Assembly: GCA_035480635.1 (NCBI GenBank)
Contig: DATIHN010000010.1
Span: 1-46,274, forward strand
DNA: 46,274 nucleotides
Source of the DNA: Candidatus Saccharimonadales bacterium
GTDB lineage: Bacteria > Patescibacteriota > Saccharimonadia > UBA4664 > DATIHN01
Reading direction: 5' to 3'
Shown here one piece after another: positions 4,719-6,177 of the stretch (position 1 is its first letter; each line of letters begins with the position of its first letter). A program made the position numbers and the translations under genes. The notes beneath the pieces were generated by a model. The model had not been told where the DNA came from. It made no database searches and saw nothing but the letters and a program-made list of their open reading frames with translations.

Positions 4719-4747
4719 TTGACAAAAAAATGCAATTGTGTTAGACT
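4719..4747 (+). promoter_or_regulatory. Strong promoter of the small RNA
   Basis: TTGACA (4719-4724), a 17-bp spacer, TAGACT (4742-4747). The start site is predicted near 4754. Confidence 0.85.
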
Positions 4748-4753
4748 CTTAAA

Positions 4754-4942
4754 CCATACCGTGATTATTGCCGAGGTGGTCCCAGGTTGGGGCTTTGTAA
4801 GTTTGGTATATGAGTGCTCACCTCCTTATATGCCATGTACCTTCCAAAAGCCCCATCCTCGGATCGGCTCACAAATGGCTCTCAAGTTGCTTGGGATGCG
4901 GCGCGCAAGCGATCCCTTCCTCAGCAGCTTGAGGGCTTTTTG
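4754..4942 (+). ncRNA. Small RNA with an anti-Shine-Dalgarno segment
   Basis: An independent transcription unit of about 190 nt with its own promoter (4719-4747) and intrinsic terminator, and no ORF that looks coding. It folds as nested helices: CCGAGG (4771-4776)/CCTCGG (4857-4862), GGGGCTTT (4789-4796)/AAAGCCCC (4847-4854), and GGTATAT (4805-4811)/ATATGCC (4828-4834). The top of this arm contains TCACCTCCTTA (4818-4828), the exact 3' tail of bacterial 16S rRNA. The S1-domain gene downstream has AAGGAGG (5027-5033), which could pair with CCTCCTT. It lacks the conserved cores of SRP RNA, RNase P RNA and tmRNA. It could instead be an attenuated leader of the S1 operon, but that operon has its own promoter at 4953. 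Confidence 0.72.
4878..4942 (+). terminator. Terminator of the small RNA
   Basis: A 14-bp outer stem (4878-4891 with 4923-4936, two G-U pairs) encloses a second GGGAT/ATCCC stem and is followed by five T (4937-4941). Confidence 0.85.
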
Positions 4943-4952
4943 ATTGCTAATC

Positions 4953-4982
4953 TTTACAGATGGGGTGTCATTAGGTTAGAAT
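4953..4982 (+). promoter_or_regulatory. Promoter of the S1-infB operon
   Basis: TTTACA (4953-4958), an 18-bp spacer, TAGAAT (4977-4982). The start is expected near 4989, which gives a leader of about 75 nt containing two short GC-rich hairpins. Confidence 0.75.
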
Positions 4983-5026
4983 AAGCCTAAATCGCCGCCG
5001 CATTTTGGGCGGAGAAAATTTGTTCG

Positions 5027-5054
5027 AAGGAGGAAGCCAGCCAAGAGGGCTGGC
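5027..5054 (+). promoter_or_regulatory. Distant ribosome site plus hairpin before the S1 gene
   Basis: A perfect AAGGAGGA (5027-5034) lies 30 bases before the ATG at 5065, too far for a normal start. Between them GCCAGCC (5036-5042) and GGCTGGC (5048-5054) form a 7-bp hairpin with loop AAGAG. Folding would bring the site to about 11-12 bases from the ATG. Translation may therefore depend on this hairpin. Confidence 0.5.
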
Positions 5055-5064
5055 CCTGTCTACT

Positions 5065-6177
5065 ATGCCTAGTAAAAGTAAAATCGAAAATCCAACCATG
5101 GAGGAGCTGTTAGCTGAGCAACCGGCCGTTGGCATGGCCGTGGGTGATGTGGCCGAAGGGACTGTGATTGCGGCCGAAAAGCATGAGGTCTGGTTAGACC
5201 TTGGCATGCGTGGCACCGGTCTAGTGGTCGGTCGCGAAATTGAACAAGCTAGTGATATCAAGCCGGGCGACGTTATTAGTGCTAGCGTGTTAGAACCTGA
5301 AACTGAGGGTGGTTACGCCGTTTTAAGTCTAAAGAAAGTGGCCAAAGAAAAGGGCTGGGAAGTCCTGGAGGAACGGGCTAAAACCGGCGAGGTCTTCAGC
5401 GTGCATCCCTATGATGCCAACAAAGGTGGCCTCTTGATCGAGGTCGAAGGCATCCGCGGATTCTTGCCAGTTTCGCAATTATCAGCCGAAAACTATCCCC
5501 GAGTATCTGGTGCCGACAAAGATGAAATCTTACATCGCTTGGTTAGCTTAGTTAATAAACCCTTGCAGGTTAGGATTCTGGACGTCAATCGCCGCGAGAG
5601 CAAATTGATTCTATCGGAGAAAGCCGCTCGGCGCGAGGACACCGAAGGCAAGGTGGCCAAACTGAAAGTCGGCGATGAAATTGAAGGTGTTGTAACCGGC
5701 GTAGTCGATTTTGGCATCTTCGTTAACGTCGATGGCATCGAAGGCTTGGTCCACATATCGGAAATCGCTTGGGACCGAGTTGAGAGCCCCGCCAAATACG
5801 TCAAAGTCGGGGATAGCGTCAAAGCTAAAATAATTTCGATTGATCGCGATAAACTGTCGCTTTCAATGAAACAGCTCCAGCCCGATCCTTGGCTCAAAGA
5901 AATTGCCAAACTGAAAGTTGGCGATGAGGTTGAGGGCAAAATCACGCGGATCACACCTTTTGGCGCCTTTGTCCAAGTTACCCCTGCCATTGAAGCTCTG
6001 GTGCACATTTCGGAACTGAGCGACGAGCACGTCGAAGACCCCAACAAATTGGTCAAGCTGGGTGAGAATAAACAATTCCGCGTTATTGCCATTGATCCGG
6101 AAGCTCACAAACTTTCCCTAAGCTTAAAAGCCAAAACCACCAAACCCCGGGCCAAGGCGGCTAAGAGTGAGGACTAG
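5065..6177 (+). CDS. rpsA: Four-domain S1 RNA-binding protein (S1-like)
   Basis: A 370-residue protein made of four S1 (OB-fold) domains at about residues 26-92, 107-184, 201-270 and 284-356. The last two are the most canonical (GIFVNVDGIEGLVHISE; GAFVQVTPAIEALVHISE). Bacterial S1 proteins bind mRNA at the 30S platform and help start translation; proteobacterial S1 has six domains, while many Gram-positives and CPR have about four. Start ATG 5065 is chosen because in-frame codons before it give a poor N-terminus. It is the first gene of an operon with ylxR, infB and rbfA, in the slot usually held by nusA; there are no KH domains, so it is not NusA. The C-terminus is a Lys-rich tail. Confidence 0.85.
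   Translation: MPSKSKIENPTMEELLAEQPAVGMAVGDVAEGTVIAAEKHEVWLDLGMRGTGLVVGREIEQASDIKPGDVISASVLEPETEGGYAVLSLKKVAKEKGWEVLEERAKTGEVFSVHPYDANKGGLLIEVEGIRGFLPVSQLSAENYPRVSGADKDEILHRLVSLVNKPLQVRILDVNRRESKLILSEKAARREDTEGKVAKLKVGDEIEGVVTGVVDFGIFVNVDGIEGLVHISEIAWDRVESPAKYVKVGDSVKAKIISIDRDKLSLSMKQLQPDPWLKEIAKLKVGDEVEGKITRITPFGAFVQVTPAIEALVHISELSDEHVEDPNKLVKLGENKQFRVIAIDPEAHKLSLSLKAKTTKPRAKAAKSED

Follow-up and report, generated by a model that had tools for sequence, protein, structure and literature searches.

A putative trans-encoded antisense small RNA with a loop complementary to the ribosome binding site of a type IV prepilin gene in Saccharimonadia

The window, a 46,274-nt stretch of DNA from a Candidatus Saccharimonadales bacterium, raised the question of what is encoded immediately 5' of the gene for ribosomal protein S1, and what would be bound by a segment there that resembles the 3' end of 16S rRNA. 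The original prediction was of an independent, structured and terminated small RNA (sRNA) whose loop, complementary to Shine-Dalgarno (SD) sequences, should act on translation start, with S1 or many mRNAs as targets. The first part of this prediction was supported, but the proposed targets were not. Comparison with related genomes indicates that the element is very probably a trans-encoded antisense sRNA that would block translation of the major type IV prepilin.

The small RNA gene and its antisense hairpin

The promoter of the sRNA (positions 4719 to 4747, + strand) consists of TTGACA, starting at 4719, a 17-nt spacer, and TAGACT, ending at 4747, with TG preceding the -10 element. Homologues in related genomes had a promoter of the same architecture 53-64 nt 5' of the sRNA core, as exemplified by the in-register promoter TTGACATTATTGATATAATGTGCTACATT of genome G005. 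The predicted RNA, with ends inferred from promoter and terminator, is approximately 189 nt long (4754 to 4942, + strand). The region from 4748 to 4946 was calculated to fold with an energy of -87.9 kcal/mol (z = -7.0), which was equaled by none of 200 shuffled sequences. Folding, sequence, and alignment delimited a 3' hairpin and intrinsic terminator at 4872 to 4942 (+ strand), having a U-tract at 4937-4941 and an end read from the sequence at approximately 4941. The complete transcription unit of promoter, folded RNA, and terminator that had been predicted was thus borne out by the sequence, by the z-score, and by a layout kept in the homologues.

An inner motif, GTTGCTTGGGT.TCGGCCCCTCCAAGGTG.CCA.TCCTCGGCAAC, was strongly conserved in the 3' hairpin of the largest family, where the stem around it is variable but paired. 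The sRNA of the window has this motif partly in common with the largest family, and two other families had plain terminators in place of the 3' hairpin. A search for a second target matching the motif gave nothing consistent.

The window and eight homologous loci were searched against Rfam 15, as had been proposed at the outset, and no family, including SRP RNA, 6S RNA, RNase P RNA, and tmRNA among others, reached its gathering threshold. Permissive settings returned only microRNA and snoRNA models far under the cut-off. This result is in keeping with the earlier statement that the element lacks the core sequences of SRP RNA, RNase P RNA, and tmRNA.

The 5' portion of the RNA forms a hairpin (4773 to 4870, + strand), delimited by folding and covariation, that presents the antisense loop. 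Covariance model R1, for which eight homologues including the window's own sequence were used, matches 4786 to 4857 (+ strand) within it. The ten-base apical loop, UGCUCACCUC (4815 to 4824, + strand), was mostly unpaired in the ensemble fold, the unpaired probability being 0.77-1.0 except for one G at 0.5. When the eight hairpins were aligned, 93.7% of the pair cells were standard pairs, with changes on both sides in 7 of the 18 pairs and double changes in 15 cells. By each of three measures (percentage paired, cell count, and covariation score), the alignment exceeded all 500 shuffles; shuffling does not remove the effect of relatedness, but the slid controls of the alignment do, and these gave only 41-56% paired. 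The compensatory changes suggested earlier as a check were therefore found in the hairpin stems of the eight genomes, and both the architecture and the structure of the element are shown by comparison.

While the stems of the hairpin covary, a 16-nt core around the loop stays constant. This core, GAGUGCUCACCUCCUU, consists of the loop and its closing pairs, and each of its columns was identical in 8 of 8 sRNAs, such that the SD-complementary segment is conserved as the original prediction had asked. In the window, the conserved unit reads GAGTGCTCACCTCCTT (4812-4827) and reaches 5' past anything found in 16S rRNA. The sequence TCACCTCCTTA does lie at 4818-4828, where an 11-base identity to the 16S 3' end had been reported; however, the 16S rRNA of this genome itself ends in GGATCACCTCCTTT, and only 10 nt (TCACCTCCTT) are common to it and the sRNA.

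Complementarity to the prepilin ribosome binding site

Examination of the remainder of the genome revealed that 4811 to 4827 (+ strand) is a perfect 17-nt complement of the ribosome binding site (RBS) of a prepilin gene. The RBS reads AAGGAGGTGAGCACTC-AC-ATG, and the complementarity takes in the SD and the spacer. The gene product has a KQGGFTLLELLIVIVIIGILA-type segment at its N terminus and carries the N-methylation motif PF07963 of prepilins. The gene lies in the order pilB (T2SSE), pilC (T2SSF), prepilin, and pilM/N/O, with minor pilins also found in several genomes, and has its own promoter approximately 40 nt 5' of the SD. The prepilin promoters of five loci (L009, L011, L012, L015, and L017) had a conserved CGTAAGCGCTT-like sequence between the -35 and -10 elements, and similar sequences were also found near other promoters of these genomes. 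The sRNA is encoded on contig C10 and the prepilin on C19, and in G001 the two are approximately 316 kb apart on one contig.

In the whole 788,404-nt assembly, the 17-mer complement occurred at two sites only, the antisense strand of the sRNA and the prepilin RBS; all others had at least three mismatches, with two having exactly three. Assuming uniform bases, approximately 1e-4 perfect 17-mers were expected in this genome. For the approximately five gene starts that have AAGGAGGTGA, a match of the extra seven bases had a chance probability of approximately 3e-4, with the other families uncounted. In a genome-wide comparison of duplex energies, the prepilin RBS (-39.0) was best after the sRNA's own strand, and the next site (-33.3) formed an interrupted duplex. 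A second prepilin-like gene carrying PF07963 (G000 C13:22504, + strand, in L095) has the RBS AAGGAGGTGAGAACCTA, with three mismatches, and is a possible second target of the sRNA.

Across the order, only sRNA loops and prepilin RBSs matched the 16-mer with no more than one mismatch. Both partners were present in eight genomes of four families, with 16 of 16 positions complementary in six genomes, 15 of 16 in G001, and 14 of 16 in G004; the exact and exclusive complementarity and its conservation in four families are likewise shown by comparison. The departures, one base in G001 and two in G004, lie on the pilin side and are not answered by changes in the sRNA; no compensatory change between sRNA and mRNA was seen in the core, the sRNA core being invariant and leaving nothing to covary. 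Among ten pilin leaders, the 16 columns of AAGGAGGTGAGCACTC were identical in 8-10 of 10, and the flanks were lower and mixed. The conserved block therefore has the same 16-column boundaries in sRNA and pilin mRNA, and this shared boundary together with exact complementarity points to RNA-RNA pairing. Shine-Dalgarno function accounts for AAGGAGGTGA, but not for the spacer GCACTC.

Duplexes of 20 or more pairs were predicted between sRNA and pilin leader in the largest family, and cognate duplexes exceeded in strength those obtained by re-dealing the partners (1.2% of permutations, in which relatedness was not controlled). The SD region was predicted to be partly paired in some pilin leaders. 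The loop could also pair over approximately 10 nt with other strong SD sequences, and specificity would therefore rest on duplex length. Taken together, the pairing of sRNA and pilin mRNA is well supported by comparison.

Distribution, synteny, and alternative explanations

Among 99 relatives searched at the DNA level, two genomes, from other families of the order, contained the loop. When the loop pattern was searched in 393 genomes of the class, 11 of them from the order, it was found in 9 order members, among them Candidatus Saccharibacteria bacterium G2_22, CullarsAll.DT.42, UBA6017, and RYN_427, and in no others. Genomes with the pattern usually had two sites each, one being the sRNA hairpin (eight genomes, four families) and the other the prepilin RBS on the opposite strand. 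Exact hits in Solibacillus, Cryobacterium, Bacteroidaceae, and others were single sites without a partner and were taken as chance. The covariance model detected one copy of the sRNA per genome in every one of the eight order genomes that are at least 90% complete; these come from four families and had themselves supplied the model's sequences. No match was obtained in approximately 380 other genomes of the class, nor, when 380 genomes sampled from the phylum were searched, in any that lay outside the order; searches over 40 genomes apply stricter filters, such that weak relatives could be missed.

The sRNA was located upstream of the S1 cluster in all eight homologues, which answers the question of conservation upstream of S1 genes posed by the original prediction, and the genes for IF-2 and RbfA come next where the contig extends. 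Between sRNA and S1 in seven of the eight is a gene for a small membrane protein (L058-L063, e.g. L063:5248-5775, - strand) with an N-terminal transmembrane helix; no such gene is found at this position in the genome of the window. In L002 and L003, the intervening protein has a C-terminal TPKTG/TPETG-like motif followed by a hydrophobic stretch and a basic tail, resembling a sortase substrate.

The order member G010 (a 71% assembly) shows neither S1 nor pilin, and in G008 the S1 match starts 127 bp from the contig end, making the missing sRNA uninformative. In G003 (84% complete), the S1 locus is intact and the sRNA is absent there; no diverged copy was found with up to two mismatches, at the S1 locus, or by the covariance model. 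The pilin RBS of G003 reads AAGGAGGTGAACATTC, in which the spacer has drifted and the SD is kept. Loss and drift in this one case from an 84% assembly would be expected if the sRNA holds the pilin spacer fixed.

The location of the element had suggested that it serves the S1 operon as an attenuator or leader, in keeping with its constant position 5' of S1, with the terminator between element and gene, and with the ability of the S1 SD, AAGGAGG, to pair with CCTCCTT. We consider this explanation highly improbable, as S1 has its own promoter-like site (4953 to 4982, + strand) 3' of the terminator and outside the sRNA, a separate gene intervenes in 7 of 8 genomes, and the S1 locus of G003 lacks the element. 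The duplex with the S1 RBS is also much weaker than that with the pilin RBS (-23.8 versus -41.2 kcal/mol), and the S1 gene (5065 to 6177, + strand; PF00575, E 1.4e-56) is better described as a syntenic neighbor than as the target. A free anti-SD decoy mimicking 16S rRNA, which would bind many mRNAs and tune translation start globally, is also improbable. The identity of TCACCTCCTT to the 16S tail, the exposed loop, and the presence of AAGGAGGTGAG in the second prepilin RBS as well are consistent with a decoy, and several targets could explain an invariant core. Nevertheless, the conserved unit runs six nucleotides (GAGUGC) past 16S, and these match the pilin spacer in relatives; AAGGAGGTGA occurs at only approximately five gene starts in the genome; and the sRNA is not found in sister orders, in several of which the pilin genes have SD sequences too. 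The core would resemble 16S rRNA because the sRNA targets an SD sequence.

Conservation of the block in both genes might also arise if a single transcription factor bound AAGGAGGTGAGCACTC as DNA at the sRNA and prepilin genes, the TGAG-CA-CTCA within it being near-palindromic and both copies lying approximately 40-65 bp 3' of a -10 element. Only two close sites per genome, the inclusion of the whole SD in the invariant block, and the placement of the sRNA copy, antisense, in the loop of an RNA hairpin that covaries make such an operator very improbable. A short leader-peptide ORF (MSAHLL...) in place of an RNA was tried and rejected by the comparison and has next to no probability: in three genomes AT precedes the core, giving ATG AGT GCT CAC CTC CTT, but most relatives lack this ATG, having ACG, GTG, or GCG instead; in addition, the third codon positions show no variation and changes in the stem are compensatory. 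The conserved block is best explained by pairing of the antisense sRNA with the prepilin mRNA.

Two further observations concern neighboring subjects. The AAGGAGG of S1 lies approximately 31 nt before its ATG (window 5027-5065) with a CCAGCC...GGCTGG hairpin between, and in the S1 leader of G003 an inverted repeat separates GAAGGAGA from the ATG; start selection on S1 mRNA may use a structured spacer. Prepilin genes of several other families of the class (L155, L158, L159, L160, L161, and L163) have their own extended RBS motif, approximately GGAGGGTGGGCT, before the ATG, which is longer than an SD sequence needs. An analogous antisense RNA was sought in the sister orders and rejected, the pattern AGYCCACCCTCCT having at most one site per genome and no sRNA-like second copy, and the longest S1-upstream match to a sister genome's own pilin RBS was 7-11 nt, at the level of chance.

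Proposed mechanism and relation to known RNAs

The element has its own promoter and terminator, as judged from sequence only, an unlinked target, conserved complementarity, and a covarying structure, all in keeping with a trans-encoded sRNA. We infer that it is transcribed, pairs with its target in the cell, represses it, and affects host attachment. Transcription would start at the dedicated promoter and stop at the intrinsic terminator, and the RNA would fold into a long hairpin exposing UGCUCACCUC. The loop would most likely nucleate on GAGGUGAGCA in the pilin leader, upon which the GAG/CUU closing pairs could open and 16-17 pairs form across SD and spacer. In the resulting duplex, GAGUGCUCACCUCCUU would pair with AAGGAGGUGAGCACUC(A) in the short prepilin leader, covering the whole SD and the spacer to the start codon, and in several relatives the duplex would extend on both sides into the stem arms. 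The 30S subunit would be shut out and major-pilin synthesis lowered; expression of the downstream operon (minor pilins, pilM, pilN, and pilO) might be lowered too.

C-rich hairpin loops with anti-SD motifs are used by Staphylococcus aureus RNAIII and RsaE to block ribosome binding, and such RNAs act through short seed motifs on many targets, whereas the present sRNA, from a lineage of Patescibacteria, has a long match to one site. FinP, which acts on traJ, and the plasmid copy-number antisense RNAs are stem-loops perfectly complementary to the target leader and encoded opposite it; the present sRNA is unlinked to its target and conserved in trans across families. The csRNAs of Streptococcus pneumoniae R6, encoded by the ccn genes, are trans-encoded, pair with the RBS and start region of comC, and repress it, as demonstrated by breaking and then restoring the complementarity between SD and AUG (PMC4507080). 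They resemble this sRNA as small trans-encoded RNAs complementary to an RBS, repression being predicted here. The five csRNAs are siblings under CiaR with predicted partial complementarity to comC (PMC4507080), whereas this sRNA comes from an unrelated phylum, is present as a single copy in each genome, matches a prepilin RBS perfectly over 16-17 nt in most of them, and matches no Rfam family. The pilE gene of Neisseria meningitidis, which encodes a type IV major pilin, likewise has an antisense RNA, but this RNA is cis-encoded, overlaps pilE, and was reported to have no significant effect on pilE or pilin levels (PMC4402397); the present sRNA is encoded in trans on another contig, and its complementarity is limited to 16-17 nt centered on the RBS. 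The sRNA constitutes a new family within a known class of RNAs, and it carries the caution that a segment of a noncoding RNA resembling the 16S tail may indicate one particular SD sequence and not mimicry of the ribosome.

All cultivated Patescibacteria are obligate episymbionts, and in cultured Saccharibacteria type IV pili drive host binding and twitching (PMC12206443). In the open-access literature that we searched, no sRNA regulator in Saccharibacteria and no report of this RNA were found. It is possible, though rather unlikely, that the sRNA is a dedicated switch connecting growth state, through the S1/IF-2/RbfA neighborhood, to piliation, moving cells between host-seeking and settled states and perhaps acting on the second prepilin also. 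If so, major-pilin synthesis would stop in an episymbiotic lineage whenever the sRNA is made. The specific sRNA-target pair, which is conserved over four families, is open to reporter assays in a laboratory host and does not require cultivation of these bacteria, and comparison of these genomes suggests that the sRNA probably switches off the pili used for host attachment.
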